Shown in pieces: positions 8,199 through 61,611 of a stretch of 64,000 bases of DNA. The stretch spans positions 186,001 to 250,000 of the forward strand of contig NZ_CAMLSE010000005.1 in NCBI RefSeq assembly GCF_946482605.1, written 5' to 3'. Positions within the stretch are counted from its first letter, which is position 1, and each line of letters opens with the position of its first letter. The position numbers and the translations under genes are program-made. The notes under the pieces were generated by a model that was given only the letters and a program-made list of their open reading frames with translations, ran no database searches and had not been told where the DNA came from. This DNA comes from an uncultured Dyadobacter sp. (GTDB lineage: Bacteria; Bacteroidota; Bacteroidia; Cytophagales; Spirosomataceae).

Positions 8199-10556
8199 AT
8201 GATCCGAAACTACTTCAAAATGGCCCTTCGCAATCTGCATGCAGGTGGCTGGTACTCTGCATTGAACATTGGCGGCCTGGCCGTGGTGCTGGCTGTTGGT
8301 TTGCTTCTGTTCTGGTGGGTTCAGAATGAGCTGAGCTTTGATCGGTTTCATGCCGATGCCGAGCGGATTTACCAGATTAATATTCATTTTGGCAAAGGAG
8401 AGGACGAATATACTACCACTTCAACGCCAGGCCCTATTGCTGTGGCAGCACTCAGGGAAGTGCCAGAAGTGGAAAGCGCGGTGCGCATGGGTGATTATCC
8501 GTCAGCAACATTCCGCGCCAACAACAGAACATTTACGGAAAAGGATAATCTGGCCTATACGGATGCGAATTTTGTTGAGATCTTCAATGGCTTTAAAGTT
8601 CTTCACGGTAACAAAAATAAACTTTTCCCGGCCCCCAATGCCGTTGTATTGTCGGATAAACTGGCCCGTAAGTTCTTCGGAACGGCAGATGCCATTGGGA
8701 AAACATTCACCAATGTAGAAAGCAATGCCACCTTCACCGTAAGCGCAGTTTTGGAAGACGCACCCGACAATTCATCATTCAGACGGGACATGTATGTAAA
8801 TCTGGCCGTTTTGAAAAACCTTAATCCACAAAACGGGGGACGCCCGGTAGACGAAAATTGGGACGACTATGGGTTTGGGACTTATGTAAAACTGGCTGCC
8901 AAGGCTGATCCGTCGGCGGTGGCAAAAAAGCTGACTGCCCTACATGCCAAGATACGCAAGGATGCCACCAACCCGTCGGACTTCCGGTTGCAGCCGCTCT
9001 CTGAAATCCACCTTTATGCTGTGGAAGGGAATGAGTCGGCGGGTAAACAAGTGGGAATGATGGGAGCCGTTGCGCTGCTTTTGCTCAGCATTGGTTGCAT
9101 TAATTATGTCAATCTCACCACCGCGCGGGCCACGAGGCGGGCCAAGGAAATTGGTATTCGCAAAGTCGTAGGTGCCGGCTCCCGGCAGTTGGCCGCGCAG
9201 CTGCTGGTAGAATCTTTGCTCACGTTAAGCCTTTCACTGATTTTGTCGCTTGGGCTTTTGCAAGGGATCCTGCCGTTTTATGCAAGCGTTACGGGCAAAT
9301 CCGGTAACTTTTCACTGTTCGATCCGCATGTGTGGCAAATTCTGCTCGGCGCAATTACATTCTGTTTTGTTGTGGCAGGCATTTATCCCACATTTCTGAT
9401 TTCCGGATTTAACCCGATCCAGGCTTTGAGAGGACGTTCCGGCCAGGCGAGTGGCGCATTGCTGCGCAAATCGTTGGTGGTTGCTCAGTTCGGATTGGCA
9501 ACCATACTCCTGGTAGGCACCTTTGTCATAGGCAGCCAAATGCGTTTTATCCGAGAGCGCGATCCCGGTTTTGACCGAAAACACACCTTCACATTTGATG
9601 GCCGGACTTTTACACCGCAGTTCAAGCAGGCGCTCAGCAGTGAGTCGAGTGTAGTGGGCGTTAGTACTTCCACCGACACGCCGGTCAATGTCTCAACAGG
9701 TACTTTATCTACGGATTGGGATGGAAAAGCCAAGGATAGGGCATTAATTATGGCCCAACTGAATGTGGATCGGGACTTTATACCCAATTTCAGATTGAAA
9801 TTGCTGGCAGGACGAAATTTCAGGGGCGTCAAAGCAGATTCGACCGCCGTGATTCTGAATGAAACTGCTGTCAGACAAACAGGAATCAAGGATCCGATCG
9901 GCAAACGATTTAAGCTTAATGCCACGGAAGGGACTATCATTGGTGTGGTGAAAGATTTCAATATAACGTCGGTCCGCACTCCTATCTTCCCTTTGGTTAT
10001 ATTCAGTCACCCTGACGGCAACTACAAGGTGCACGTGCGGACAACGGCACGACTTGCGCCGGCCGCTATTCGAAAAGCCGAGCAGTTATGGAAGCAATAC
10101 ATCCCTGCCTATCCATTCGAATATGCTTTTTTGGACGCCGATTACAATGCGCTCTATCGCACTGAAGAGCAAACAGGCCGGCTATTTAATTTTTTTGCGG
10201 GTGTTGCAATGGTGATATCATGCCTGGGATTGCTGGGGTTAACCGCATTTACCACCGAACAGCGGACCAAAGAAATAGGCATCCGGAAAGTGCTCGGCGC
10301 AACGATTCTGAACATTACGACCTTGCTATCGAAGGATTTCATGAAACTGATCTTCATCGCCATCGTAATCGCATCGCCCGTTGCCTGGTTTGTCATGAAT
10401 AACTGGCTAAAAGATTTTGCCTATAAAGTGGAGATGCAGTGGTGGATTTTCTTGTTGGCCGGCCTATTGGCTGCGCTTACTGCATTGCTTACCACTTGTC
10501 TCCAGAGCGTCAAAGCCGCCCTCGTCAACCCAATCGAATCGATGAAGGCAGAGTAA
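8199..10556 (+). CDS. MacB/FtsX-type ABC transporter permease
   Basis: A 785-residue permease of the eight-to-ten-helix kind common in Bacteroidota, with two MacB_PCD-plus-FtsX repeats. The first has a TM helix at about 22-42 (ALNIGGLAVVLAVGLLLFWW), a periplasmic domain, and three helices around residues 285-400. The second repeats the pattern, ending with three helices at about 660-780. The conserved cytoplasmic motif RRAKEIGIRKVVGAG recurs as QRTKEIGIRKVLGAT, showing the duplication. No ATPase gene is adjacent, as is usual for these isolated permeases, which often act in lipoprotein or peptide export or antimicrobial response. The substrate is unknown. Confidence 0.9.
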   Translation: MIRNYFKMALRNLHAGGWYSALNIGGLAVVLAVGLLLFWWVQNELSFDRFHADAERIYQINIHFGKGEDEYTTTSTPGPIAVAALREVPEVESAVRMGDYPSATFRANNRTFTEKDNLAYTDANFVEIFNGFKVLHGNKNKLFPAPNAVVLSDKLARKFFGTADAIGKTFTNVESNATFTVSAVLEDAPDNSSFRRDMYVNLAVLKNLNPQNGGRPVDENWDDYGFGTYVKLAAKADPSAVAKKLTALHAKIRKDATNPSDFRLQPLSEIHLYAVEGNESAGKQVGMMGAVALLLLSIGCINYVNLTTARATRRAKEIGIRKVVGAGSRQLAAQLLVESLLTLSLSLILSLGLLQGILPFYASVTGKSGNFSLFDPHVWQILLGAITFCFVVAGIYPTFLISGFNPIQALRGRSGQASGALLRKSLVVAQFGLATILLVGTFVIGSQMRFIRERDPGFDRKHTFTFDGRTFTPQFKQALSSESSVVGVSTSTDTPVNVSTGTLSTDWDGKAKDRALIMAQLNVDRDFIPNFRLKLLAGRNFRGVKADSTAVILNETAVRQTGIKDPIGKRFKLNATEGTIIGVVKDFNITSVRTPIFPLVIFSHPDGNYKVHVRTTARLAPAAIRKAEQLWKQYIPAYPFEYAFLDADYNALYRTEEQTGRLFNFFAGVAMVISCLGLLGLTAFTTEQRTKEIGIRKVLGATILNITTLLSKDFMKLIFIAIVIASPVAWFVMNNWLKDFAYKVEMQWWIFLLAGLLAALTALLTTCLQSVKAALVNPIESMKAE

Positions 10557-10723: not shown

Positions 10724-11467
10724 TTATTGCCTGGGATCGGCGTTTGGCGCAGTAAAAATTCGGGCAAAATTGACAGCCTCCTTGAAAAGAACGTTGAAAC
10801 TAAAATCCGTAAAAACAATTGAGGGATCTGCAAAAACGTCCACTCTTTCGACGCCAATGTCTTCATTAACTAATTTTCGTATCAATTCAATTTCGAAGAC
10901 AAAAGTATTTGTTCTTGTTCCTTGTACAACCGGAAGAATCTGCCTTCTGAATCCCTTAACCCCCGCCTGAGTGTCTGTTATACTCCCGGTCAGGATCATC
11001 CGATTTAAAAACATAAGGATTTTTGAAAAAACTCTTCTTTTCAACGGAAGGTTTTCAAAATACTCCATACTTCTGTTGCCGTAAATGAAACAGCAGCCTG
11101 GGTTTCTATTAAATATTTCCACCATTTCCACGATCGGGTCCGTCCCGAATGGAAAATCGATATCAGTATAGATGATTAGCTCACCAGTTGCGTAATTTGA
11201 TCCCTTTCTTATCGCTGAGCCCTTTCCTTCATTTACAATATTGTCTACGAAAACGATACCTGAGATGGAACTGAGAAATGCAACTTCATTTCTTTCCAGA
11301 CTCGTTGATCCATCATTAGAAATAATATACTGAATCTCATGATCCGGCAATTTGCCATTTAACGTACTGATGTTCCCTAATAAGCCGGCAATCCAGCCAA
11401 CCGGCGGATTGAAACACGGAAGGATAATACTAATCTGCTGGTTCTGAATTGATTTATATTTGATCAT
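10724..11467 (-). CDS. GT2-family glycosyltransferase (dolichol-phosphate-sugar synthase-like)
   Basis: About 248 residues with a GT-A fold: ISIILPCFNPP at the N-terminus, NDGSTS, NEGKGSAIRKG, the metal-binding YTDIDFPF (DxD-type), and TDTQAGVKGFRR in the acceptor half. The start is placed at the ATG in front of IKYKS rather than ten codons upstream, because the shorter form begins directly before the first beta-strand. No membrane segments follow the catalytic domain. It probably transfers a sugar to a polyprenyl phosphate for the GT39-like enzyme encoded divergently at 13041. The donor sugar is unknown. Confidence 0.82.
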   Translation of the reverse strand: MIKYKSIQNQQISIILPCFNPPVGWIAGLLGNISTLNGKLPDHEIQYIISNDGSTSLERNEVAFLSSISGIVFVDNIVNEGKGSAIRKGSNYATGELIIYTDIDFPFGTDPIVEMVEIFNRNPGCCFIYGNRSMEYFENLPLKRRVFSKILMFLNRMILTGSITDTQAGVKGFRRQILPVVQGTRTNTFVFEIELIRKLVNEDIGVERVDVFADPSIVFTDFSFNVLFKEAVNFARIFTAPNADPRQ

Positions 11468-11839
11468 ATGAAAATAAAAGCGGGAACTGCAATGCAAGCC
11501 ACACTAAAAAGCATGGAATTAGTTTAATCAGATTTATCATTACAGCAATTCTTATAGGCGGATACTTGATAGGCATTGCCATGCAATCACCATAAAATAA
11601 GGTTATACATTCCGCTTCCCATACGGAATAAATGCCGCGACAGTGGGGTCAAAAATCCAACTTTCTAAGTTTTTTTATATTTCCACCAGTACCCCACCTT
11701 TCCCAATATTCAATCGTAATTATCGGCGACCTTTCATCAGTTTCCAATTAGGAAACCTGCATGACTTTCCCAATTATGGCTGTAAGTCATCAATGGGTTA
11801 ACATTCTGCTAATCCCATGAATGCAACTTTACATAATTT
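11468..11839. other. Divergent intergenic region
   Basis: About 370 bp between the divergently oriented GT2 and PHP genes, A+T-rich. It should hold both promoters, but I see no exact TAnnTTTG element on either strand and no clear inverted repeat or RNA gene. Confidence 0.5.
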
Positions 11840-13027
11840 ATGAAAGCCCTTTGGTCTGCCGCCATCTTCTTAGTAACTCTGGTGCTTTTTCTATTGATAC
11901 ACCAGTATTTTTTTTGCTCCAGATTTCAATTTTATCAGCCAGCACCCTTCCATGGCAACGCGATTTACAATCCATATAAATCGGCAAAACCGGACCATTG
12001 GGTAAAATGCAATTTTCACGCGCATGCAAGAAGCTGGAATGGAATTACTAATGGAAATGGGACCGCAAATGATATTCACAATGCCTACAAAGCGTTGAAA
12101 TATGGTGTTCATTGTGTTTCCAATTATCATAGCATCGACACAACCGGCTCACTTAAAAAGAGCTATATATCTGCTTATGAACACGGCTTTAATGTCAATA
12201 AAACGCACCAGCTCGTTTTGGGAAGCAAGAAAGTTTTATGGCTGGACTACCTTTTCCCACAAACTATTCACAATAAACAGGATGTGCTTAATCATTTGAG
12301 GGAAGCTAACTCAATTACTATATTAAATCACCCGGAATTAAGGAAAGGCTATCTTAATAGCGATTTTCAATCACTGTCAGGTTATGATTGCATCGAAGTT
12401 TTAAATCCCTCCGTGATTTCAACAGGTCAATGGGATGCCGCTCTCTCTGCCGGGAGAAGAGCTTTTGTTGTCGGAGATGATGATTTACACAATGTTATAA
12501 CAAAGGATCGACTTGGTAAGATGTGTACATTTGTAAACGTACAGGAAAACAGTAAAGGTCTAGTTCTAGAGGCGCTCAAATCCGGAAATAGTTATGGCGT
12601 TATAATGGGTGACAATCAGAGTGTGGATTCTGTACCTTATCTCAAAAGCCTGACAATCAATTCCGATATCATCACAATCGAGGTAAGCCAACATGCCAGA
12701 GAAATTGTTATTATCGGTCAGAATGGAAAGGTGATACAGTCGTTCAGCAATCTTGAAAAAGTCAAATTTGTACTCAATAAAAACGATCATTACGCCAGAG
12801 CCACCTGCACCTTTGACAACGGTACCAAGCTATTTCTAAATCCCTTGTTTTACTCGGATGATCATGATTCCATTCTTTCAACAGTTCCGGAAAATACTCT
12901 GGAAACGATGTTGTTTCGTGCATTAGGTGTTGGAATTATTTTCATATGGCTGTTTGTGGTGCGAAAAGTGGTGCAATGGAAGAAACAGGATTGTCACTCC
13001 CGAGAATGGGTCTCTTTCAAACTCTAA
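11840..13027 (+). CDS. Membrane-anchored PHP-domain phosphoesterase-like protein
   Basis: A 395-residue protein with a TM helix at about 5-22 and another near the C-terminus (about 361-380). Between them lies a PHP-type metal site: NFHAHAR (His60, His62), a YGVHCVSNYH strand, LNHPE, and GDDDLHN near residue 215. PHP domains are trinuclear metal phosphoesterases. The two anchoring helices would put the domain on the periplasmic side. The GT39-like gene begins 13 bp downstream, so the two are probably co-transcribed. This pairing suggests hydrolysis of a lipid-linked or glycan phosphate, but no substrate is shown. Confidence 0.72.
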   Translation: MKALWSAAIFLVTLVLFLLIHQYFFCSRFQFYQPAPFHGNAIYNPYKSAKPDHWVKCNFHAHARSWNGITNGNGTANDIHNAYKALKYGVHCVSNYHSIDTTGSLKKSYISAYEHGFNVNKTHQLVLGSKKVLWLDYLFPQTIHNKQDVLNHLREANSITILNHPELRKGYLNSDFQSLSGYDCIEVLNPSVISTGQWDAALSAGRRAFVVGDDDLHNVITKDRLGKMCTFVNVQENSKGLVLEALKSGNSYGVIMGDNQSVDSVPYLKSLTINSDIITIEVSQHAREIVIIGQNGKVIQSFSNLEKVKFVLNKNDHYARATCTFDNGTKLFLNPLFYSDDHDSILSTVPENTLETMLFRALGVGIIFIWLFVVRKVVQWKKQDCHSREWVSFKL

Positions 13028-13040
13028 CCCCCGCCTATTA

Positions 13041-14579
13041 GTGTCACAAATAACGCTGTCATTCAATCCATTAGCTCAAATTATTGTCATTACGACATTG
13101 ATACGCGTTCTATTAGCCACCTTTCTTAATCTTGGCAATGATGAAGTTTATTACTTTACCTACGCGGTACAACCCGACTGGAATCACTTTGATCATCCTC
13201 CGTTAGTCGGACTTTTTATTCGGCTCACTACGCTAAATCTGACCTGGATAAATGACGTGTCAATGCGCTTGCCAGCAATTTGCGGAGCTGCCATCAATAC
13301 ATGGCTTATTGCAAAATGCACACAACGAATAGCCAATGAAAGAGCAGGAATTTTCGCCTCCATTCTCTACAACGCTTCAATTTATACGAGTCTTATTTCC
13401 GGACTTTTTATTTTACCGGATTCGGTGCAGCTTATATTTTGGATGGCGGCGTTGCATGAAATGGTGAAGATAGTTGACGCACCAGAAAGTGCAAATAAAG
13501 ACAATCGCATTTTACTGGTTGGTATATGGATCGGTTTAGCAATGATGTGCAAAGTTCATGGCATTTTTCTTTGGCTTGGCTTTATAGGTTTCATTGTTTT
13601 TCATCGCCGCTCTTTACTGAAAAGCCCCTTTTTATATCTGGGAGTAGCGATTACACTTCTACTTATCTCCCCTATTCTCTACTGGAATGTCAGCAACGAT
13701 TTTATCACCTGGGGGTTCCATAGTGAAAGAGTTACAGTTCACGAGGGTATTAATTTCAAGTCATTTCTAGTGGCAACAATCGGGCAGGTCCTGTATGCGA
13801 ACGCTGCACAATTTGTTATTTATATCATTTGCCTTACAGCATTTGTCAAAAGAAAAAAGTTTACAGGAAACAATGTCACCCAGTTCTTGCTATGGTGCAG
13901 TGCTCCGATTATTTTTGCAACAACTCTGGTCTCCCTATTCAGAACTACACTCCCTCATTGGAGCGGGCCCGGATTTCTCGGATTGATGATTATTGCAGCG
14001 ATCTACATTGATTTCAGCATAACTCAACATTCAAAAAAACCGTATTATTTTTTAAAAGCTGCTGTCTTCATAACCAGCTTTGTCTGTGTTGCCAGCCCTT
14101 TGCTTATCTGCTTTTTTCCAGGTACAACCTCAGATAAGGCTTCTCCCGAGACAGGCCTAAACGACTCGACACTTGATTTGCATGGCTGGGATGAACTGCT
14201 ATCTGCTTTTGAGAAGATTCGGAAGGATGATATTGCAAACAAAAGAATGGTCGAAGCCGACCCGATGGTTGCACATAAGTGGTTTCCTGGCGGTCATATT
14301 TACCACTATGTTGCTTATCCTCTGAAAATGAGGTTTGTCGGATTAGGGAACCTGAACGATCTGCATAAATTCCAATGGCTCAATTCGATACATGGATCTA
14401 TCGAGCCCGGATCAAATGCTTATTATATTTCACCTTCTAACAATTTCACAGATCCAAAGACACTCTATTCTGGAAAATTTGACATAATAGAACAGGCTGC
14501 TACAATCACTCAAAAAAGAAGCGGAAAACTCGCCCGTTACTGGTATGTTTACAGGCTTAAAACATCAAAAGGAATGTAA
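13041..14579 (+). CDS. GT39/ArnT-like polyprenyl-phosphate glycosyltransferase
   Basis: A 512-residue polytopic membrane protein of the PMT/ArnT clan (GT-C). The first periplasmic loop carries LGNDEVYYFTYA and NHFDHPPLVG, matching the acidic metal/substrate motif and the DxPP-type motif of the clan. About ten further hydrophobic helices follow, then a ~150-residue soluble C-terminal domain. The open frame extends upstream to a GTG at 12927 inside the PHP gene, but I choose the GTG at 13041. It lies 13 bp after the PHP stop and directly precedes the first hydrophobic segment. The enzyme would transfer a sugar from a polyprenyl phosphate to a periplasmic acceptor. Confidence 0.82.
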   Translation: MSQITLSFNPLAQIIVITTLIRVLLATFLNLGNDEVYYFTYAVQPDWNHFDHPPLVGLFIRLTTLNLTWINDVSMRLPAICGAAINTWLIAKCTQRIANERAGIFASILYNASIYTSLISGLFILPDSVQLIFWMAALHEMVKIVDAPESANKDNRILLVGIWIGLAMMCKVHGIFLWLGFIGFIVFHRRSLLKSPFLYLGVAITLLLISPILYWNVSNDFITWGFHSERVTVHEGINFKSFLVATIGQVLYANAAQFVIYIICLTAFVKRKKFTGNNVTQFLLWCSAPIIFATTLVSLFRTTLPHWSGPGFLGLMIIAAIYIDFSITQHSKKPYYFLKAAVFITSFVCVASPLLICFFPGTTSDKASPETGLNDSTLDLHGWDELLSAFEKIRKDDIANKRMVEADPMVAHKWFPGGHIYHYVAYPLKMRFVGLGNLNDLHKFQWLNSIHGSIEPGSNAYYISPSNNFTDPKTLYSGKFDIIEQAATITQKRSGKLARYWYVYRLKTSKGM

Positions 14580-14979: not shown

Positions 14980-16452
14980 TCACCTGTTTAGTTTATACAA
15001 AACCTGCACACTAGCTCCCCACAAAAGGTCCTTTCCAGAAAACTCTGTTTTACGCAATTGAGGATTAACGTAAGGGCTTACCCTAAACAGGAACTTGTTC
15101 GAGCGGCGCTCTAGACCCAGGTTAATTGTAATATCGTTAAAAGGCTTTATTGCCAATTTTGCATTATATTCTCCTTTATTAAAGGATTGACTATTTTCTT
15201 TATAATCGAAATGGATTTCCTTTTGGGAGTAAACCGAAAGGTCGGTTCCTATCCCGAACCGCAGAGCCCAATTCGGAATTATTTCGTGATGATAAGCGAC
15301 TGCCAAGGGAATTTGAACGAGCTGACAATTTTGTTCAATATTTAACAAATCAACATTTTGAGCTAAGTAGGGCGCATACAGAGCCCGAAAATCCCGGCCA
15401 GTCTCTTGACCAAACTGCTCGGCCGTGTCGTAACTTTTACCCGTGATCTCTGTCCAGCGAGCACCGGCTTGAAAACTCCATTTAGGAGTGATCCGTAGCT
15501 CCCCAAGAATTGAGCCTGCCACCTGTTTGTTACCTACCCCAAGACTTCCACCCACATAATAATCCATCTTTCTAAGAACCGACTTAATTGACTCTGAGTA
15601 GTATTTGGGTTTGTCTTTATTAACAGAAGATAATCTCTCCGGCGCCTTTAAAGCCGGCAATTTTAACCCCATAAATGAAAAATGACTGATACCAATAGGG
15701 TTTAGCTCCGACAGTAACCAGTTTTTGCTTTCCTTGCCTCGGGGCACATTATTTGAGTTGTCGGTAGCGGAGGAGTAATTTTTTATTGTCTTACCAGCTT
15801 TGGGAAAGTTGTCGTTGTTGGTGTCCCCTGCGTTGTCAGACGGTTTATTATCTTCACTGGCTACCTGGAAAGGTTCTTTCTTAACTACGGCATTGCCTGG
15901 TCTGTTGACGTTTAATTCTGTACCAGAAGCATTAATCTGAGCAATGGATTTTGAAGCCGTTTCAGCCTGTTCATTGGGCGCAGTGCCGGATGAATCTGTG
16001 GGCCTAAAGTTTGGGTTCCCTACTGTCTCATCGGTTAGTGGATCATTATTGGGCTGCTGAATTTCATTGTAAGAGTTCTGCCTGCTATAAAGTAACTCCG
16101 GCTGATCAGTTAGAGTGGATTTTTCAATATATCGGTTAATGTATACCGTGTCAACTCGTAAAGCCTGTTTTGGAGTAGAATGTAGATCATTATAAACGAT
16201 TTTGCTTTTTAAAGAATCCAGAGAGGATAACAGTTTTTTATTATTAAGGTTTAGAACGTAATTAAAGCTTAGAGAGGCAACCAACAACGAAGCAGCCAAT
16301 CCATAAATCAGGATTTTGGCCCATGAAAAATAGGATCTAATGTTACCATGCGAAGAGACATAGTTATATATCCGATCGACTTCTTCATCGCTTGGATCCA
16401 GACCCAATAACTTTTTCCGGAATTCATCGTCAAATTGTTCAGTTTTCATCAA
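14980..16452 (-). CDS. Anti-sigma-like inner-membrane protein with C-terminal outer-membrane barrel (dual-membrane-spanning)
   Basis: A 490-residue protein in four parts. Residues 1-42 are acidic/basic and cytosolic (FDDEFRKKLLGLDPSDEE). Residues about 44-66 form one TM helix. Residues about 70-280 are a low-complexity linker rich in Asn, Ser, Thr and Pro. Residues about 285-490 consist of alternating amphipathic strands (GGSLGVGNKQVAG, WSFQAGARW, NWALRFGIGTDLSVYS, LLWGASVQVLYKLNR), like a PorT/OmpA-type beta-barrel that ends on an Arg. The start overlaps the ECF sigma stop by 14 bp. This matches the architecture of the dual-membrane-spanning anti-sigma factors (Dma) described in Bacteroides thetaiotaomicron: sigma-binding tail inside, barrel in the outer membrane. 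That the N-terminus binds the sigma factor is inferred from gene order. Confidence 0.72.
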   Translation of the reverse strand: MMKTEQFDDEFRKKLLGLDPSDEEVDRIYNYVSSHGNIRSYFSWAKILIYGLAASLLVASLSFNYVLNLNNKKLLSSLDSLKSKIVYNDLHSTPKQALRVDTVYINRYIEKSTLTDQPELLYSRQNSYNEIQQPNNDPLTDETVGNPNFRPTDSSGTAPNEQAETASKSIAQINASGTELNVNRPGNAVVKKEPFQVASEDNKPSDNAGDTNNDNFPKAGKTIKNYSSATDNSNNVPRGKESKNWLLSELNPIGISHFSFMGLKLPALKAPERLSSVNKDKPKYYSESIKSVLRKMDYYVGGSLGVGNKQVAGSILGELRITPKWSFQAGARWTEITGKSYDTAEQFGQETGRDFRALYAPYLAQNVDLLNIEQNCQLVQIPLAVAYHHEIIPNWALRFGIGTDLSVYSQKEIHFDYKENSQSFNKGEYNAKLAIKPFNDITINLGLERRSNKFLFRVSPYVNPQLRKTEFSGKDLLWGASVQVLYKLNR

Positions 16453-17047
16453 ATCCTTTATTTGGCCAGTTATAAAGTTGATACAAATTCGGAAAGTTTA
16501 TTTTTATCATAGTTTGAAGCTTTCGTCTGGCATCCCTTAGGTTAGATTTTGATGTTCCCTCCTGAATACCAAGCATGTTGGCTATTTCCTTATGCGAATA
16601 CCCATCAATCACAAAAAGTGTAAAAACCATTCTATAAGCGGGCGGAAGGCGCTGAATCATTAGCAATATTTCCTGGGCAGATATTTCACTTAAAATATCA
16701 TCACTCCAGTCCGTAACTTCCAGATCATCCAGACTAAGCTGTCCCTGCCATTTAAGATTCTTCCGATAATAGTCAATGGCTGTGTTAATAGCAATTGTTC
16801 GAAACCATGCTTTAAAAGGTTGAGCTTTGTCATAGCTATGTAAATTTATAAACACTTTTAAAAAGCAGTCATTGACAATCTCCTCGGCTTCCTCGAAGGT
16901 AGCTGCATATCTAACCGAAATGCTTTTGGCATATCCTGCAAATTGTCGGATCAGACATCGCTGTGCCTGCGTATTTCCATCCTTACAGGCATCCAAAATG
17001 CTTGAGAGATCCTGATCGTTAAAGAGAGTTTTCCTTTTGAATAGCAA
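16439..17047 (-). CDS. ECF RNA polymerase sigma factor
   Basis: A 202-residue sigma-70 family ECF factor. The region 2 core is seen as FEEAEEIVNDCFLKVF and FKAWFRTIAINTAIDYYRK, and region 4 as LPPAYRMVFTLFVIDGYSHKEIANMLGIQEGTSKSNLRDAR with its helix-turn-helix. It overlaps the following anti-sigma/barrel gene by 14 bp, a layout typical of translationally coupled sigma/anti-sigma pairs. Likely targets include its own promoter. A short CCGTACGG palindrome lies upstream around 17076-17083, but no -7 element is obvious. Confidence 0.9.
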   Translation of the reverse strand: MLFKRKTLFNDQDLSSILDACKDGNTQAQRCLIRQFAGYAKSISVRYAATFEEAEEIVNDCFLKVFINLHSYDKAQPFKAWFRTIAINTAIDYYRKNLKWQGQLSLDDLEVTDWSDDILSEISAQEILLMIQRLPPAYRMVFTLFVIDGYSHKEIANMLGIQEGTSKSNLRDARRKLQTMIKINFPNLYQLYNWPNKGFDEN

Positions 17048-17654
17048 GGGATAATTATATTTGACATCATCTTCCCCGTACGGAAGGGGATGTCTAAAGG
17101 TGGGGTATGGTTCTGTATTTTTTTAGGAGGAAGGATTTTTTAGGATTCACCCCACCACTTTTTCGGACAGTCCGTAATGGCTTTTGAAAACAGTGTATCC
17201 CCGTTCCCTAACCACGTTTCGCTTTTCAACTATGGTTTACTTAAAAAAAGATCACGTCGACTGTACCGTTTTTGTGGTTGCCGGGCAGGACTTCACTGTT
17301 ACCAGGGTGCATGATCCCAAATGGCACAGAATTGCCCGCTAAGGCTGTGTTCGTCTGAGACTAAATCTACGAAAAAGAGCTTAAATATAGAAAATGAGAA
17401 TAAATAAAAAACAGGATAAGTCTGATGAGCCGGTGTATACCCTCGCAAATAGAGAGGTTTTGCTGATCAACTATTCTGATAGATGGAGATATCACTTCGG
17501 CAGCCGACATATGGCTGATAGATAGAAGATTAGATGTGACACAGCGGACTCAGTCCGACGGATGATCGTATTGACAAAGAACCGGTTATCCTCCAATTGC
17601 AAGGCGTGAAATCAGGCGGATAGTCAACAAAGTCAAAGAAAACAATTAAACTTT
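17048..17654. other. Long intergenic region, no convincing gene
   Basis: About 600 bp upstream of both the sigma gene and the ACP-like gene. It should hold the sigma promoter on the minus strand. A 36-codon frame (17232-17342, plus, beginning MVYLKKDHVDCTVFVVAG) looks protein-like but is too short to call and could be a remnant. No RNA gene or strong repeat is visible. Confidence 0.4.
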
Positions 17655-17993
17655 ATGAAGTTCAATTTGGATATTCTTAAATATCACCTGTTAATTCAGC
17701 AAGGAATTTCTCCCGAACGTGTCAACCTCGAAACTAATTTCAAGGCTGATCTGAAAATGTCTAATAACCAGATTAGACGTATGCTTGGCTTCGTTCAAGG
17801 GCAAACCGGAGTTATTTTCCCAAGCGATGCCACGTTTTATCTGACCGATGTTTTTGATCTGATGATCCACATTATGATCCGTGCGGTGGAAGTTGAAATA
17901 AGTGACGAATATTTCAATTCCCGATCTGAGACAGTCTGGCAAAACTTTCTCCGCACAAAGTTTATGCTTCCGGTTTATGCTCATCTTAATTAG
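17655..17993 (+). CDS. Small acyl-carrier-protein-like protein
   Basis: A 112-residue protein whose first ~75 residues follow the ACP pattern: a first helix, then SPERVNLETNFKADLKMSNNQIRRML in the place of the DSL-loop and helix II, then FPSDATFYLTDVFDLM for helices III-IV. The phosphopantetheine Ser of DSL is not cleanly conserved: the only nearby Ser sits one position early in KMSNN. It may therefore be a non-acylated ACP homologue of a kind common in Bacteroidota, or a decaying one. The surrounding 17.6-18.9 kb contains pseudogene material. Confidence 0.45.
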   Translation: MKFNLDILKYHLLIQQGISPERVNLETNFKADLKMSNNQIRRMLGFVQGQTGVIFPSDATFYLTDVFDLMIHIMIRAVEVEISDEYFNSRSETVWQNFLRTKFMLPVYAHLN

Positions 17994-18360: not shown

Positions 18361-18886
18361 TATCCGTTATTTTTGACTGTCGCCCAAGTTTATCATCAGG
18401 CTATCGATCTGGCATCGTCATGGTTATTCGATCAACTTGACAAACAAACACTGGCTAAGATCGATCCGGGTTTTCTTCTCGTCGCCGGATTTTTCAATTA
18501 TTATGAGGGAGTATGTGCACATCAAACCATTTTATAAAACATTTATCTGGTTTATGCAGGATCGGGATAAAACCGAAGGGTTGAAACAACTTAAAAATGG
18601 CTTCGGAAACATCCATGTTCTCAAAGGCGGAGGCAGGCATTTATCTCGCACATATTATGATAAAAAACCTTTTGAGGCATTGCAACACCTAATATCCCTT
18701 TCGGAATCATATCCCAATAGTCCATATATCGAAGGAAAATTGGCAGAAGTATTACTAAGCGCGGGTAAACCGGGAAATGACCTTGTGCATATTCAAAATC
18801 TAATGGATAGCGATATAACGGGATATAGAAATCTCGCCCTTGTAAAAATAGCGAACAATATATCAAACTTAACAAATGAACATTAA
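18361..18886 (+). pseudogene. Multiply frameshifted TPR-like protein gene
   Basis: Protein-like segments run one after another in different frames. Frame of 18361 gives QAIDLASSWLFDQLDKQTL and DPGFLLVAGFFNYYEG up to a TAA at 18535. Frame of 18437 gives FYKTFIWFMQDRDKTEGLKQLK (about 18517-18594). Frame of 18597 gives MASETSMFSKAEAGIYLAHI (to about 18655). Then back to the 18437 frame with YDKKPFEALQHLISLSESY, SPYIEGKLAEVLLSAGK and a final helix to 18886. Joined, these read as one helical-repeat protein with TPR-like helices (EAGIYLAHI-YDKKPFEALQHL). At least three frameshifts and no intact start are seen. Identity of the parent protein is not known to me. Confidence 0.6.
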
Positions 18887-18930
18887 TGAAACATCTTAAA
18901 AAACACGTAAACAAACTTTTAGAAAATATT

Positions 18931-21339
18931 ATGAGAAAAACGAATCAGTTAAAATTCCTTAGGTCACTAAAAAGGCAGGTGCTACTTGCCGTTATGATAT
19001 TTTGCCCAGCATTCATTTTTGCACAGACAAAATATTCAATTAGTGGTATAGTGAAGGATGCTGGCAATGGCGAAACACTCGCGGGCGCAACTGTCCTTTT
19101 AAAAGGCACGTCGATTGGAAGCACGACCAACGAATATGGTTTTTACTCTATCACAGCACCCGAGGGAAATTATACCTTAATCATTTCCTATTTGGGATTT
19201 ACAACTCTTGAAAGGGCCGTGGACCTAAGCTCGAATCAAAACCTTAACATCGAGATCAAAGGGGATGCCGCTGAATTAGATGAAGTAGTCATTACAGCTG
19301 AGGAATCCAAGAAAATTGACCTTCAAACACCCCAAATGAGTGTGGCAAAACTCTCAACGAAGGACATCAAAAAGATACCTGTTGTTTTGGGTGAGGTGGA
19401 TTTGATCAAGTCCATTCAATTACTCCCAGGTGTAACCAACGCCGGCGAGGGCGCATCGGGTTTCAATGTACGCGGCGGCGCTGAAGACCAGAACCTAATT
19501 CTCTTGGATGAAGCAATTATTTACAACGCTTCCCATTTGTTTGGTTTCTTTTCGGTGTTCAATGCTGATGCCATTAAAGATGTTAACCTTTATAAGGGAG
19601 GAATTCCTGCACGTTTTGGAGGGCGAGTTTCTTCGGTACTAGATATACGACAAAAAGACGGAAATAGTAAAGACTTTGAACTCAATGGCGGCATTGGTGC
19701 TATTTCCAGTCGTTTAGCGGCAGAAGGGCCAATGTTTAAAGACAAAGGTTCGTTCTTAGTAGCCGGAAGAGCTTCTTATGTAAATTTATTTCTAGCCTTG
19801 GCTAACCAAAGCAGCAGAGCCGGGTTCTACGATTTAAATCTGAAAGCTAATTATGAAATTGATGAAAAGAACAAACTATATCTATCTGGCTATTTAGGCA
19901 GTGACAACTTTGATCTGGCCGGATTTTTTACTAATTCATACGGAAACCTCTCAGGAAACTTGCGATGGAATCACATCTTTAGTAACAAGTTATTCTCCAA
20001 TGCATCCCTAATATACAGTCGGTATAATTACAATCTGGAAATTCCGATTGAGGGAATTGACTGGACCTCGGATATAAACAATTATAATGTGCGCTATGAC
20101 TTAGGGTACTATGCGAGCGATAAATTAAAATTTGATTTTGGAGTAAATGGCATTTATTACAACTTTAATCCAGGAAGACTCAATCCCTTAAATGCAGCTT
20201 CGGGTGTCAATCCGGAGAAGTTAGATAACAAATTTGCTTTTGAGACTGGGGCTTACGCAAGTTTAGAACATAAAATGTCCGGAAAGCTCACCGCTCAATA
20301 CGGCTTGCGTTTTAGCTACTTCAATCGACTTGGAAAGCAAATATTAAACAACTACGCCAATAATTTACCAGTAATTTACAACAAGGAGCTAGGTATTTAT
20401 GAGCGTGCTGAGCCCATTTCAAATACAAACTACGATAAAGGAAAGAGCATAGCTACATTCAATAACTTAGAGCCTCGGTTTGCTCTTTCGTATCAACTTA
20501 ACGAGAAGTCTTCCCTTAAAGCAAGTTATAACCGAATTGCTCAATACCTGCATCTAATTTCCAATACCTCATCAGCCACGCCATTAGATGTTTGGGCACC
20601 CAGCGGAAAGTTTATTAAACCACAGATTGCAGACCAATATGCTGTTGGCTACTTCAAAAATTTAAACGAAAATATGTTTTCGATCGAAGCAGAAGCCTAT
20701 TATAAAACTATCGGCAACAGGATCGATTATATCAACGGCGCAGAACTTATAGCACAAAACACCATCGAAACCGAAATTTTGACTGGTGAAGCCCGAGCTT
20801 ATGGGTTAGAGTTTCTATTGCGGAAAAATCAAGGTGATTTTACAGGTTGGGTGGAGTATACGTTGTCAAAATCCCAACAGCTCACACCCGGAGGAGCAGC
20901 CGGAGGACCAGGCATTAACAATGGGAAATGGTATAGTTCTAACTCGGACAGAACCCACGACGTTTCGTTTACTGGAAGTTACAAATTCAACGAAAAATGG
21001 CGATTTGGGGCTAACATGGTATTCCAGACAGGGCGACCCGTGACCTACCCGAACGGACAGTTTGTGTACAGCGGATTATCCGTCGCGACTTATTCCGAAA
21101 GGAATGCAAACCGATTGCCAGCCTACCACAGACTAGATCTTTCTGCAACCTTAACACCTCAAAAAAACAAAAATAGAAAATGGCAAGCAGAATGGGTATT
21201 TGGAATATATAACGCTTATAACCGAAAAAATACAGCATCTATTGCTTTCGCTCAAAACCAAAAGACCGGCGTCACCGAAGCCACTCGCACCTCCATATTT
21301 GGTATTGTACCCTCAGTAACATATAATTTTAATTTTTAA
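18931..21339 (+). CDS. TonB-dependent receptor with CarboxypepD_reg-like N-terminal domain
   Basis: An outer-membrane receptor of about 802 residues. I place the start at the ATG at 18931, which opens a standard signal peptide ending FIFAQ; an upstream ATG at 18886 would add 15 charged residues. After the signal come a beta-sandwich carboxypeptidase-regulatory-like domain (YSISGIVKDAGNGETLAGAT), a plug (GEVDLIKSIQLLPGV, FNVRGGAEDQNLILLDEA) and a 22-strand barrel ending in VPSVTYNFNF with a terminal Phe. It is not of the SusC class. The DUF4249 lipoprotein gene begins 4 bp downstream, a recurrent Bacteroidota pair. The ligand is unknown. Confidence 0.9.
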   Translation: MRKTNQLKFLRSLKRQVLLAVMIFCPAFIFAQTKYSISGIVKDAGNGETLAGATVLLKGTSIGSTTNEYGFYSITAPEGNYTLIISYLGFTTLERAVDLSSNQNLNIEIKGDAAELDEVVITAEESKKIDLQTPQMSVAKLSTKDIKKIPVVLGEVDLIKSIQLLPGVTNAGEGASGFNVRGGAEDQNLILLDEAIIYNASHLFGFFSVFNADAIKDVNLYKGGIPARFGGRVSSVLDIRQKDGNSKDFELNGGIGAISSRLAAEGPMFKDKGSFLVAGRASYVNLFLALANQSSRAGFYDLNLKANYEIDEKNKLYLSGYLGSDNFDLAGFFTNSYGNLSGNLRWNHIFSNKLFSNASLIYSRYNYNLEIPIEGIDWTSDINNYNVRYDLGYYASDKLKFDFGVNGIYYNFNPGRLNPLNAASGVNPEKLDNKFAFETGAYASLEHKMSGKLTAQYGLRFSYFNRLGKQILNNYANNLPVIYNKELGIYERAEPISNTNYDKGKSIATFNNLEPRFALSYQLNEKSSLKASYNRIAQYLHLISNTSSATPLDVWAPSGKFIKPQIADQYAVGYFKNLNENMFSIEAEAYYKTIGNRIDYINGAELIAQNTIETEILTGEARAYGLEFLLRKNQGDFTGWVEYTLSKSQQLTPGGAAGGPGINNGKWYSSNSDRTHDVSFTGSYKFNEKWRFGANMVFQTGRPVTYPNGQFVYSGLSVATYSERNANRLPAYHRLDLSATLTPQKNKNRKWQAEWVFGIYNAYNRKNTASIAFAQNQKTGVTEATRTSIFGIVPSVTYNFNF

Positions 21340-26628: not shown

Positions 26629-27612
26629 TTATTTTAATACATAACCACCCTGCACCGGCTGCACCTGTAAATGGTAAATGACGCCCAACTGGTTGTAGAA
26701 ATTGGCAATGGAATCGGTGGTAACCGAACCGGTAAAGCGCTTTTTGAGGATTTCGGGGCTGGCAACGCGCGTGCTGATCCCGAAACCGTCTTGCAGCTGC
26801 TCGAATACCGTTTGCAGTGTTTCTCCATTATAAACCAGCTCATGCCGCAGCCAGGCGGTTTGCTGTTCGCCGTCTGTTTTGAATTTTTTCAATTGATTTG
26901 CCCTCGCGTCAAGCGTCGCCTGTTCTCCGGGAGCGAGGTCCAGCTGCGCGCCGGCAGTTTCCAGCCTTACCTTGCCTTCCGTGAGCACCACCGCCACGTG
27001 CTCGCGCCGGTTGCGGACATTGAAAACCGTCCCGAGCACATTCACCTGCACCCGACCGGCCTCTACCCTGAATCCTATCGCCCGGCCCAGCTTCTGTTCT
27101 TTTTTTACTTTGAAATATGCCTCCCCATTCAGGCTGACTTTCCGGGCAAGCAACCCTCTCGCGAAGGATAACTCCGTATTACCGTTCAGCGTAACTTCCG
27201 AGCCGTCGGGTAATGTAATCGTTTTAATCTCTCCGAATGCCGTGGCAAAGCCCACCGGCCTGGTATACTGCCAGAAACCGAAACCCGCCAAAACCAGCAA
27301 GGCCACACTCGCCGCTACTGCCAGCCATCTTCTGCCAGACGGCAATGGCATTACGGGCGTTTCACGGACTATCGTTTTTTGCCGGATGCGATCCCAGTTG
27401 GCCTGCAACTCTTCTGCTCCGAAAACGTCGGTCTGCGCCGCGAGCTCTTTCACGATCCGCACCGCCGCTTCCACTTCGGGGCGCTTGTGCGGGTGCAGTC
27501 TGAGCCATTGCAGCCAGAATGCATCGGAAGATTCGGAAGGATCGGTTACCCATTTGATAAAGGCATCATCCGCCACGAAATCCTGGCTCGAAAAATGCTC
27601 GTACGACTGCAT
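26629..27612 (-). CDS. FecR-family anti-sigma factor
   Basis: A 327-residue FecR protein. It has an N-terminal cytosolic anti-sigma region with a conserved Trp segment (FIKWVTDPSESSDAFWLQWL), one TM helix at about 93-112 (WLAVAASVALLVLAGFGFW), and a periplasmic FecR domain (TLPDGSEVTLNGNTELSF, GTVFNVRN, EGKVRLE). The C-terminal DUF4974-type domain (LVYNGETLQTVFEQLQDGFG) contacts the STN domain of the receptor. It sits between the divergent sigma gene (27825) and its receptor (14 bp downstream), completing a FecI-FecR-SusC cell-surface signalling set. Confidence 0.93.
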   Translation of the reverse strand: MQSYEHFSSQDFVADDAFIKWVTDPSESSDAFWLQWLRLHPHKRPEVEAAVRIVKELAAQTDVFGAEELQANWDRIRQKTIVRETPVMPLPSGRRWLAVAASVALLVLAGFGFWQYTRPVGFATAFGEIKTITLPDGSEVTLNGNTELSFARGLLARKVSLNGEAYFKVKKEQKLGRAIGFRVEAGRVQVNVLGTVFNVRNRREHVAVVLTEGKVRLETAGAQLDLAPGEQATLDARANQLKKFKTDGEQQTAWLRHELVYNGETLQTVFEQLQDGFGISTRVASPEILKKRFTGSVTTDSIANFYNQLGVIYHLQVQPVQGGYVLK

Positions 27613-27756
27613 ATTTGAATGTATTAGTTTACCCTACCCGCTCACTTCCGGGCAATTAGGTTATTTTGGTAAAATTCCCGGATCAGCCATTCGGCACCGG
27701 CCTCCAAAACGGTTCTATAAATATAGAAAGATATTTTTTTCTGATTTATTTATCGG

Positions 27757-27764
27757 TATTTTTG
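27757..27764 (+). promoter_or_regulatory. Candidate -7 element of the ECF sigma gene
   Basis: TATTTTTG matches TAnnTTTG exactly and lies about 60 bp before the sigma start codon. The upstream sequence is T-rich (run of seven T at about 27734-27740) but has no clean TTTG at the right distance, so only the -7 box is supported. Confidence 0.35.
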
Positions 27765-27824
27765 AATCTGCTTAAATAAATAATTAATTGGACAAAACGC
27801 AGGAACCCGCTGCGTGCCACGCGT

Positions 27825-28481
27825 ATGAAAACAGATCAGAACCTGCAAAATGCTCCCGACGGGAACCATGCAAGTTCTGACGAAACGATGGCCCTGGGGT
27901 GCTGGTCCAGGTTGCAACAAAAAGACGAAACCGCGCTCGAATGGCTGTATAAAACCTACGCGCGCATGCTTCATAACTACGGTTACCGCCTCGTCGCCGA
28001 TAAGGAGCTCGTCAAAGACGCCGTGCAGGACCTTTTCGTCCAGATCTGGCACCAGGCCGACCGCCTTCCGGCCGTCACCTCCGTAAAAGCCTACATGATC
28101 GTTGCCCTGCGCCGGGAGCTGCTGCGCCGCATTACCCGCCAGCGCCAGTTTGTCACCCAGGAAACCGAACTTCCCGACGCTTCTTTCGAAGACCAGCTCA
28201 TTGAAATACAAACAGGAGAAATGATCTCCGAAGGCTTGTCGGCATTTATTCAAAAACTGCCTACGCGCCAGCGGGAGATCATTTTCCTCAAATATTATAG
28301 CGGCCTATCCACTGAGGAGATCGCCGCTGCGATGGAACTTACATCGGGCTCGGTTTACAAGCTGATTTACAAGGCACTCGCCAGCCTCAAAGACCTCACT
28401 TCTGACTGGAAAGCACTCTGGACGATTGTACTGCTCGCATTGCATTTGCTATTGCTCAAATCGGATATTGGTGAGCTTTAA
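27825..28481 (+). CDS. ECF sigma factor (FecI-like) with hydrophobic C-terminal tail
   Basis: A 218-residue ECF sigma factor. Region 2 is seen as MLHNYGYRLVADKELVKDAVQDLFVQIW and region 4 as LPTRQREIIFLKYYSGLSTEEIAAAM with the recognition helix after SGSVYKLIYKAL. The last ~20 residues are strongly hydrophobic (LWTIVLLALHLLLL), a feature seen again in the other FecI-like factor at 59852. It is divergent from its fecR partner and converges on the ThuA/dehydrogenase gene, overlapping its 3' end by 33 bp. It likely activates the SusC/FecR genes when the receptor is loaded. Confidence 0.9.
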   Translation: MKTDQNLQNAPDGNHASSDETMALGCWSRLQQKDETALEWLYKTYARMLHNYGYRLVADKELVKDAVQDLFVQIWHQADRLPAVTSVKAYMIVALRRELLRRITRQRQFVTQETELPDASFEDQLIEIQTGEMISEGLSAFIQKLPTRQREIIFLKYYSGLSTEEIAAAMELTSGSVYKLIYKALASLKDLTSDWKALWTIVLLALHLLLLKSDIGEL

Positions 28482-59851: not shown

Positions 59852-60535
59852 TTGTTGGGGACGGTTATTTTTCAAAACTATATCGTGTTGCAGCAGCCAT
59901 TAAATCACCCGGCATCCATCGCCAATCCACTACCTGTCCAGGATACGCCTTGCCCAAATCCAGTGCGCGACGACGAGCACCTGATCAGGTTGGCCTTCGC
60001 CACAGATTCGGTGGCGGGTTGTGAATTGCTTTTCCGACGGTACTACGCTCCATTGCGAAACCATGCGGTACGTTTTGTGTATTCGCGGCAGATCGCCGAA
60101 GACCTGGTATCGGATGTATTCTGTACTTTCTGGGATAACAGGCTACATGAGCAGATCACCACTTCATATCGGGCATATTTGTTCAAGGCGGTGCGCAACC
60201 GTGCCCGAAATTACGTGCTTTGGGAGCTCAAAAAAGACAGCAACGGCGCCGAAGAGGGCTTGTTGCTCACCGACAGTTCTCCGGGTCCGGAAGGCACGCT
60301 GCTGCTGGAAGAGCTTAGAATGCAGTTAGACAAAAGCGTTCAGAACTTGCCAAACCAATGCAGGAGAGTGTTCCTGCTTAGCCGGCTGGAAGGCAAATCC
60401 TACCGCGAAATCGCCGACCAGACCAACCTTTCGGTAAGAACGGTAGAAGTGCATATCCGAAAAGCGCTTTCGACAATCCGCCAGGCACTTAACAAAGAGT
60501 GGATTTTGCTCATTGTATTTTACTGGCTTCACTAA
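59852..60535 (+). CDS. ECF sigma factor (FecI-like) with hydrophobic tail
   Basis: About 227 residues if read from a TTG at 59852; the true start may be further in, since the first ~40 residues lack conserved features. Region 2 is LLFRRYYAPLRNHAVRFVYSRQIAEDLVSDVFCTFW and region 4 is LPNQCRRVFLLSRLEGKSYREIADQTNLSVRTVEVHIRKAL. It ends with a hydrophobic tail (WILLIVFYWLH), as does the ECF factor at 27825. It is followed by fecR and a SusC with STN domain, the standard surface-signalling cassette. Confidence 0.88.
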   Translation: MLGTVIFQNYIVLQQPLNHPASIANPLPVQDTPCPNPVRDDEHLIRLAFATDSVAGCELLFRRYYAPLRNHAVRFVYSRQIAEDLVSDVFCTFWDNRLHEQITTSYRAYLFKAVRNRARNYVLWELKKDSNGAEEGLLLTDSSPGPEGTLLLEELRMQLDKSVQNLPNQCRRVFLLSRLEGKSYREIADQTNLSVRTVEVHIRKALSTIRQALNKEWILLIVFYWLH

Positions 60536-60588
60536 GGGGAATGACGCATTTACTTGTCCATCTCCGAGAAACATCATTCCTATCAAAA

Positions 60589-61611
60589 ATGACTGAGCAT
60601 ATCACTGAGCAAACCCTTTTTCTCTTCTTTGACGGGCGGGCCACCTCATTGCAACGCAAATTGATCGAGGATTGGCTTCAAGATACGGCCAATGAGGAGC
60701 TTTATTTTGCCGCGCTGGAAGCCTGGGAGCGGCAGCATCCGCAATTGAGCGGGGACACGGGCGATGCGCAGGATCGCTTTTTCTCCTACCTGCGCGAGCC
60801 TTCCCGCAATACCAATCCGGCTCTGCCGCAGCAGGTGCAGCATAATGCCTCCTGGTTTTGGTGGCAACGCGGGTTAATGGCCGCTTCCGTAACGATCGCG
60901 TTACTTGCCGGCCTGGGCTTTCTTTTTAGGGACACAATCCGCTATCAACACTTCGCCACCGATTTTGGAGAAACCCGCTCGATCCAATTGGCAGATGGAA
61001 GCCGGGTTACGCTAAATGCCAATTCGGAGCTGAAAGTGCTGCGTTGGTCTGATGAAAACGACAATCGGGAAGTATGGCTGACCGGTGAAGCCGAGTTTGT
61101 GGTAACCCATACAAAAGACCACCGCCGCTTTATAGTCCGCACGCGGGATAACCTTTCGGTTGATGTTTTAGGAACTGTGTTCTCAGTTAACGACAGAGGT
61201 TCAAAGGCGACCGTCGCGCTGCTGAAAGGAAAGGTTAATGTCCGGTATACCGAAGCAGGATTTGGGCAAAAGCAAATTATCCTCAAACCTGGAAACGTGG
61301 TTACAGTCAATGAAAAAGGAAATGTTGCATTGACCAGCCAGACTGATCCCGAGGTATTCTCATCATGGAAAAAAGGGCAGTTTGTCTTTAACAATTCAAG
61401 CCTTTTGGAAATAATGCAACTCATCAAGGACAACTATGGTGTGACCGTGCGGCTGACCGACCCGGCATTGAGCCAAAAACGCGTTTCAGGAACTTTCACA
61501 GCACAAAGTGCCCAGGAATTGTTGTCAGTACTCGCCCAGATGTACTCGCTAAAACTCGAACCCGACAACGATAATTTCATTCTGATTTCCCCACATTCAA
61601 CCCCCATTTAA
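60589..61611 (+). CDS. FecR-family anti-sigma factor
   Basis: About 340 residues. A cytosolic N-terminal region (LFLFFDGRATSLQRKLIEDWL) precedes one TM helix near 90-115 (GLMAASVTIALLAGLGFLF), a FecR domain (SIQLADGSRVTLNANSELKVL, GTVFSVNDRGSKATVALLKGKVNV) and the C-terminal STN-contacting domain (FVFNNSSLLEIMQLIKDNYG). The ATG at 60589 is chosen because the 30 codons before it are unlike the family. It lies 53 bp after the sigma stop and 14 bp before the SusC start. Confidence 0.92.
   Translation: MTEHITEQTLFLFFDGRATSLQRKLIEDWLQDTANEELYFAALEAWERQHPQLSGDTGDAQDRFFSYLREPSRNTNPALPQQVQHNASWFWWQRGLMAASVTIALLAGLGFLFRDTIRYQHFATDFGETRSIQLADGSRVTLNANSELKVLRWSDENDNREVWLTGEAEFVVTHTKDHRRFIVRTRDNLSVDVLGTVFSVNDRGSKATVALLKGKVNVRYTEAGFGQKQIILKPGNVVTVNEKGNVALTSQTDPEVFSSWKKGQFVFNNSSLLEIMQLIKDNYGVTVRLTDPALSQKRVSGTFTAQSAQELLSVLAQMYSLKLEPDNDNFILISPHSTPI

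Follow-up and report, generated by a model that had tools for sequence, protein, structure and literature searches.

How does a Gram-negative cell report the state of its outer membrane to RNA polymerase? Proteins that join an outer membrane barrel to a σ factor in one chain would represent the shortest path, and a locus in the 64,000-nucleotide stretch of DNA analysed here (the window) appears to encode such a protein beside an extracytoplasmic function (ECF) σ factor. Our leading interpretation, to which we assign a probability of roughly 0.7, is that this pair belongs to the Dma/Reo class, with a σ factor that would be released by outer membrane disturbance and would fire a small group of nearby genes acting on envelope lipids and glycans.

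An ECF σ factor gene and its barrel-bearing partner

The two genes lie on the same strand and overlap:

16439..17047, minus strand: ECF σ factor gene (202 aa, TTG start) with Sigma70_r2 and r4_2 domains
14980..16449, minus strand: Dma-like anti-σ factor gene (489 aa, ATG start)
16439..16449, minus strand: overlap of the σ and anti-σ factor genes (11 nt)

A σ orthologue with the identical 11-nt overlap was found directly upstream of the anti-σ factor gene in all 14 related loci (L001–L014; eight from Dyadobacter, one from Spirosoma, two Flectobacillus records, one record labelled Cellulophaga, and two Cytophagales MAGs). The overlap described in the original prediction is confirmed, and is likely to reflect translational coupling. 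Thirteen of these loci have TTG where the σ start aligns, and the ATG at 16449 is most likely the start of the partner, which is a single open frame of 432–527 aa in each of the 14. Relatives of the anti-σ factor that bear a genus name are from Dyadobacter, and most of the matches listed are 55–75% identical, which marks the window as Dyadobacter-like. Dma/Reo σ factors belong to group ECF21; among the best 25 NCBIfam rows for the σ factor, only superfamily TIGR02937 exceeds its cut-off; PADLOC returned a match of the σ C-terminus to a CARF model (3.4e-6) and nothing else. The window also contains two ordinary ECF σ/FecR pairs (26629–28481 and 59852–61611), which differ in this respect from the Dma-like pair.

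The anti-σ factor divides into four segments:

16324..16449, minus strand: predicted cytosolic σ-binding segment (residues 1–42)
16243..16311, minus strand: predicted inner membrane helix (residues 47–69), inside AlphaFold2 helix 43–89
15592..16182, minus strand: disordered tether (residues 90–286)
14983..15582, minus strand: 8-stranded OmpA-like barrel (residues 290–489; AlphaFold2 prediction)

Residues 1–34 presented the highest conservation among the regions measured (0.78) and residues 111–286 the lowest (0.43); the short sequences P0017 and P0019 were omitted from alignments A1 and A2, and the partial P0021 from the conservation count. Within the N-terminal segment, residues 3–15 and 21–34 were predicted with low confidence to form helices, and these matched no known anti-σ Pfam domain in a Pfam scan. 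In the 74% orthologue from D. crusticola, the hydrophobic peak begins at residue 44, and the tether of the window protein presented pLDDT < 50 across residues 86–286. Structure prediction of the C-terminal region, suggested as a check when the locus was first described, yielded an 8-stranded barrel over residues 290–489; AlphaFold2, disorder, and conservation support the Dma-like order (tail, one TM helix, disordered linker, and barrel) proposed for the protein. Conservation of the large loop predicted on the surface (residues 343–366; 0.71) is close to that of the strands (0.70), suggesting a surface role. The Pfam scan gave no PF13568 or PF13505 barrel match for the window protein, and a PF13505 match below cut-off (0.0026) for its D. 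crusticola orthologue; the profile of alignment A2 found no sequence relatives in the PDB at E 1. Co-divergence of the σ factor with either end of its partner did not discriminate between the ends or point to the N-terminus as the σ contact, as the correlation was higher for the barrel (r = 0.68) than for the N-terminus (r = 0.55). A conserved DTVYI-like motif (residues 98–107; 16129–16158, minus strand) was also observed in the tether, approximately 30 residues past the TM helix; its D100 is invariant across the 31 rows of alignment A2, and the pattern occurs in six of 65 long partners surveyed as described below, as compared to 0.1 expected from shuffles, and is possibly a protease or docking site.

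Partners of related σ factors across the phylum

Of the 198 genomes sampled from the phylum, 92 contained a match to the σ profile, and the survey of σ–barrel pairs that had been suggested alongside the structure prediction covered 100 σ–partner pairs from 57 genomes (L015 and 99 places chosen among the matches listed). These pairs lean to σ factors most similar to that of the window, and most places flagged with internal stops were left out; L141, a region with a 10-base filler, held no σ factor, L016–L044 duplicate later loci, and the partner of L062 starts at a doubtful TTG. After iteration, a barrel HMM matched 63 of the 100 partners, all of them among the 65 with at least 370 aa, whereas the 35 shorter partners gave no match. 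On the first pass it matched 29 partners at E 0.001 and 35 at E 0.01, so that a total of 63 depends on iterating among these sequences; the 100 reversed partners gave three weak matches (E 0.004–0.006) and shuffled partners none. Pfam matches at E ≤ 0.01 to PF13568 (38 partners) and PF13505 (19 partners) provide independent support for a smaller number of barrel partners. Among the pairs taken, 37 of the 57 genomes contained at least one barrel partner, and in D. crusticola, which has nine σ matches, five of the six pairs examined had a barrel. The tethers of the 63 barrel partners were 141–339 residues long (median, 194), taking the TM helix to be the most hydrophobic 19-residue stretch; the floor of 141 residues is expected of a chain that crosses the periplasm, although family resemblance could also account for it.

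An N-terminal HMM, run without a shuffle control, initially matched 27 of the 100 partners, a number that rose to 99 once iterated. The survey suggests that a common N-terminal module can carry different tails, which may be a barrel, a short end, or in single cases a PKD-like or plug-like stretch. The 436-residue anti-σ-like partner at L112 (G046:C4:82834-86670) has a PKD domain (PF18911, 3.4e-19) replacing the barrel and a weak CHU_C type IX secretion tail below cut-off (0.0034), perhaps another route by which an anti-σ factor may reach the surface; a stronger CHU_C match among the 100 partners reached 1.2e-13, and a CHU_C assignment for L108 was rejected. At L135, L136, and L137 (G096, G013, and G155), the partners also have the common N-terminal module, and their ends by eye resemble a TonB-receptor plug; Pfam Plug gave a match below cut-off for L135 (0.0013) and none for L136 or L137.

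Dma factors are described as confined to Bacteroidota (PMC13088901). Barrel-type partners were also observed in Balneolaceae (L064 and relatives P0027–P0146), which NCBI places in the phylum Balneolota, outside Bacteroidota; L064 was considered as a Bacteroidales Reo and rejected, as the relatives that carry a name fall mostly within Balneolaceae or Balneolales.

Promoter-like DNA and predicted targets

Alignment of the DNA upstream of the σ gene revealed two back-to-back copies of one bipartite element, with a gap in the pair of about 42:

17079..17107, minus strand: predicted σ promoter of the σ/anti-σ operon (TACCCCAC-N16-CCGTA)
17148..17176, plus strand: predicted divergent σ promoter (CACCCCAC-N16-CCGTA)

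Both copies are present within two mismatches in the window and in all nine of the closest loci (eight Dyadobacter and one Spirosoma), and the spacer is 16 nt in 19 of the 20 copies. A looser version was found in the Cytophagales MAG L013, whereas a search of 220 bp at ≤3 mismatches found no pair in L011 or in three Flectobacillus-like loci (L010, L012, and L014). Among 150 genomes of the family, a slightly trimmed pair occurs exactly in four, each time beside an anti-σ orthologue, and its reversed control in none; close anti-σ orthologues (E 1e-149 or better) were found in five genomes, these four and one with a 1-mismatch pair, and two genomes with more distant anti-σ matches (G297, 9.5e-70; G335, 4.8e-61) lack the exact pair. 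The pair predicts that this σ factor activates its own operon as well as divergent transcription. The regulon and paralogues were assessed in D. crusticola (G001) and relatives. Exact copies across nine genomes are located at the σ locus in 14 of 15 cases, and these genomes presented no excess away from that locus (26 matches at ≤1 mismatch vs. 35 for the reversed control), suggesting that the regulon, if real, is small and local. Several matches were rejected as promoters, including an exact one in D. crusticola (G001:C4:460605) that lies antisense inside a PF02405 MlaE gene, one-mismatch relatives in G205 and G202 that lie antisense inside a gene of similar start sequence, and the one-mismatch regions L179, L180, and L181, which lie inside open frames on the opposite strand.

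The divergent copy faces the following features:

17406..17501, plus strand: decayed remnant of a secreted-type gene (tblastn, 50% over 32 aa, E 4.7e-4)
17655..17993, plus strand: acyl-carrier-protein-fold gene, predicted target (112 aa; AlphaFold2 mean pLDDT 77)
18886..21339, plus strand: TonB-dependent receptor gene without an STN signalling domain (Pfam), possible target; σ-adjacent in L001–L006
21344..22180, plus strand: DUF4249 protein gene (Pfam), possible target

The remnant was identified against a tblastn database consisting of the window and the 14 loci; an intact secreted-type gene follows the promoter, at the position of the remnant, in D. psychrotolerans (L007) and Spirosoma spitsbergense (L009). 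The best Foldseek rows for the 112-aa protein were acyl carrier proteins (probability 1.00; best E 0.001, none below), no Pfam match was obtained, and Ser36 is invariant in six aligned relatives. The start of this gene is approximately 480 nt from its proposed promoter in the window, which counts against reading it as a target. In L008, the first divergent gene encodes a fatty-acid hydroxylase and is followed by an ACP-like gene; the lipid part of the proposed repair set consists of the ACP fold and this hydroxylase of one genome, and is put forward here as tentative. The receptor presented Pfam rows for CarboxypepD_reg types, Plug, and barrel, as well as weak rows for PEGA and DUF2490. The receptor/DUF4249 pair adjoins the σ gene in all six of L001–L006, and in the flanks examined in L007–L014 the receptor is absent or merely 35% similar. 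The original prediction placed the σ factor beside an unrelated receptor locus; this is probably wrong, as one of the promoter-like copies faces the receptor genes, and the receptor and DUF4249 genes lie beside the σ gene in L001–L006, so that the receptor is probably a target.

Further predicted targets lie 3.3 kb beyond the anti-σ factor gene, where a second back-to-back pair, 11650(−)/11690(+), is located between a GT2 gene and the genes for a CehA-like hydrolase and a PMT_2 glycosyltransferase:

11690..11718, plus strand: predicted σ promoter of the CehA-like/PMT_2 genes (2 mismatches)
11622..11650, minus strand: predicted σ promoter of the GT2 gene (1 mismatch)
11840..13027, plus strand: CehA/McbA-like metallohydrolase gene, predicted target (NCBIfam NF038032, 4.6e-15, below cut-off)
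12927..14579, plus strand: PMT_2 glycosyltransferase gene, predicted target (PF13231, 7.6e-24; true start probably downstream of 12927)
10724..11497, minus strand: GT2 glycosyltransferase gene of polyprenyl-phosphate-sugar type, predicted target (PF00535, 2.7e-12)

Random sequence with the dinucleotide composition of the window is expected to contain, per 64 kb, 0.15 copies at ≤1 mismatch and 2.45 at ≤2, so that the 11690(+) site alone is weak; the three further sites with two mismatches (window positions 9950, 27151, and 49499) are of about the number expected by chance. A one-mismatch copy was found upstream of the hydrolase gene in both of the other genomes with a close orthologue (80% and 71%), and a third genome, with a 55% hydrolase relative near the σ gene, presented a weak pair with two mismatches in each copy; all three hydrolase paralogues away from the σ gene lack a copy at ≤2 mismatches. 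The hydrolase had no sequence relatives in the PDB at E 0.01, and the NCBIfam matches of the GT2 protein were to glycosyltransferase models, polyprenyl-phosphate types among them, none of which reached its cut-off. The GT2 and PMT_2 genes together resemble, with weak NCBIfam model support, the ArnC/ArnT pair, which makes and uses a polyprenyl-phosphate sugar.

Proposed circuit and comparison with known systems

Under the proposed mechanism, the N-terminal tail of the partner would hold the ECF σ factor at the inner membrane, one helix would cross that membrane, the disordered tether of approximately 200 residues would span the periplasm, and the 8-stranded barrel would sit in the outer membrane. 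Outer membrane disturbance, sensed at the barrel or at its conserved surface loop, would send a signal down the tether and free the σ factor, perhaps via cleavage of the partner; the freed σ factor would then fire the divergent promoters and raise expression of its own operon and of the local envelope lipid and glycan genes. With a target set of this kind, the response would repair or remodel the surface being monitored. A stronger version, in which the locus is a self-contained repair circuit whose barrel reads outer membrane lipid state via the loop and whose portable lipid and ArnC/ArnT-like sugar-transfer set changes the same membrane, is less likely than not.

Two alternatives concern what the barrel does. 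It could act as a sentinel that depends on the BAM machinery as a client, such that failed folding or insertion would expose strands to cutting and free the σ factor, with neither a surface ligand nor a membrane state being sensed. A single-chain tether and a small barrel suit a folding sentinel, and a related ecfO-reo pair of P. vulgatus is reported to be among the genes most up-regulated with the toxins BcpT and Bd-A (PMC13114119) and BamA to be bound and inhibited by bacteroidetocin A (PMC9308784); however, the conservation of loop 343–366 suggests a surface role, and the predicted targets are lipid and glycan genes, with no BAM or chaperone gene seen among them, which together make assembly surveillance rather unlikely. 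Less probable still is that the chain is cut in the cell, leaving a separate outer membrane protein and an ordinary inner membrane anti-σ factor. The long tether would be easy to cleave, and nearly all of the 37 surveyed partners with no detected barrel share the N-terminus, indicating that the N-terminal module can work alone; against this, all 14 loci encode the fusion as a single open frame and the tether does not fall below 141 residues.

The remaining alternatives concern the sensor and the DNA. Surface signalling in the style of FecI-FecR-FecA, with the TonB receptor (18886–21339) as the sensor, would account for the receptor gene adjoining the pair in L001–L006, but we regard it as highly improbable: neither Pfam nor NCBIfam, at E up to 1, finds a FecR domain in the partner, while the same library does score the two ordinary FecR proteins of the window; Pfam finds no STN domain in the receptor; and in the flanks examined in L007–L014 the receptor is absent or of low similarity (35%). 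The upstream inverted repeat, a common operator shape, might instead bind a transcription factor; this is unlikely given that each arm consists of two conserved blocks with a spacer that is fixed in 19 of 20 copies and that two other genomes carry a single arm ahead of their CehA/PMT_2 genes. A σ factor with an outer-membrane-tethered inhibitor and a small local regulon is our preferred reading.

The window pair adds a member to a known class, as the class is known in Bacteroidota and our survey finds it widely spread in the phylum. The original prediction's suggestion that the pair extends the class is accordingly weak, the class being described for Bacteroidota (PMC13088901), a phylum that includes Cytophagales-like genomes, and barrels being found in 63 of the 100 partners, five of the six D. 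crusticola pairs examined among them. The different cue that it proposed is hypothetical. A literature search, mostly without subscription papers, found no promoter code or lipid/glycan regulon reported for a Dma-class pair in this group, and no paper naming both "anti-sigma" and "Dyadobacter". The Dma/Reo studies cited here concern gut Bacteroidales (PMC13088901, PMC9308784, PMC13114119); a promoter code proposed from DNA makes the targets, and the likely repair function, testable in an environmental relative.

Among known systems, the OmpA transmembrane domain shares 14% identity with the barrel, which is here fused to an anti-σ module. FecR-type systems likewise place a membrane anti-σ factor beside an ECF σ factor and a TonB receptor, whereas the window pair has neither a FecR nor an STN domain and carries its own barrel. 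Dma1 and Dma2 of Bacteroides thetaiotaomicron, with Das1 and Das2, share with the window pair an adjacent ECF σ factor, one TM helix, a disordered tether, and a C-terminal barrel; their N-terminal binding domain has a candidate counterpart here in the low-confidence N-terminal helices, and the domain order of Dma2 is the same as that predicted here (PMC13088901). The host here is Dyadobacter-like, and the likeness is one of architecture. A further mark of the class is that loss of the anti-σ factor frees the σ factor and alters vesiculation or the envelope. Their targets also differ, being PULs for Dma2 and nigD1 for Dma1, as compared to the predicted ACP-fold, glycosyltransferase, and TonB-receptor genes of the window. 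EcfO-Reo of Bacteroides fragilis and Phocaeicola vulgatus differs in having nigD genes in its regulon; PF17415 (NigD_C), which also served as a marker for Bacteroidales in the sample, was found at E 1e-8 in none of the 198 sampled genomes, D. crusticola included. For EcfO-Reo, an envelope-spanning anti-σ factor with an outer membrane barrel is predicted, LPS glycan is touched by the regulon, and outer membrane stress is the proposed cue (PMC9308784, PMC13114119); Reo is reported to extend through every compartment and to respond to that stress as its sensor (PMC13114119). The P. vulgatus σ gene is reported to be up-regulated 33-fold with BcpT (PMC9308784), and free σ factor to lead to longer O-antigen, in a response tied to envelope stress (PMC9308784, PMC13114119). 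The predicted lipid and glycan targets of the window pair would fit the outer-membrane-stress model proposed for Reo (PMC9308784, PMC13114119).
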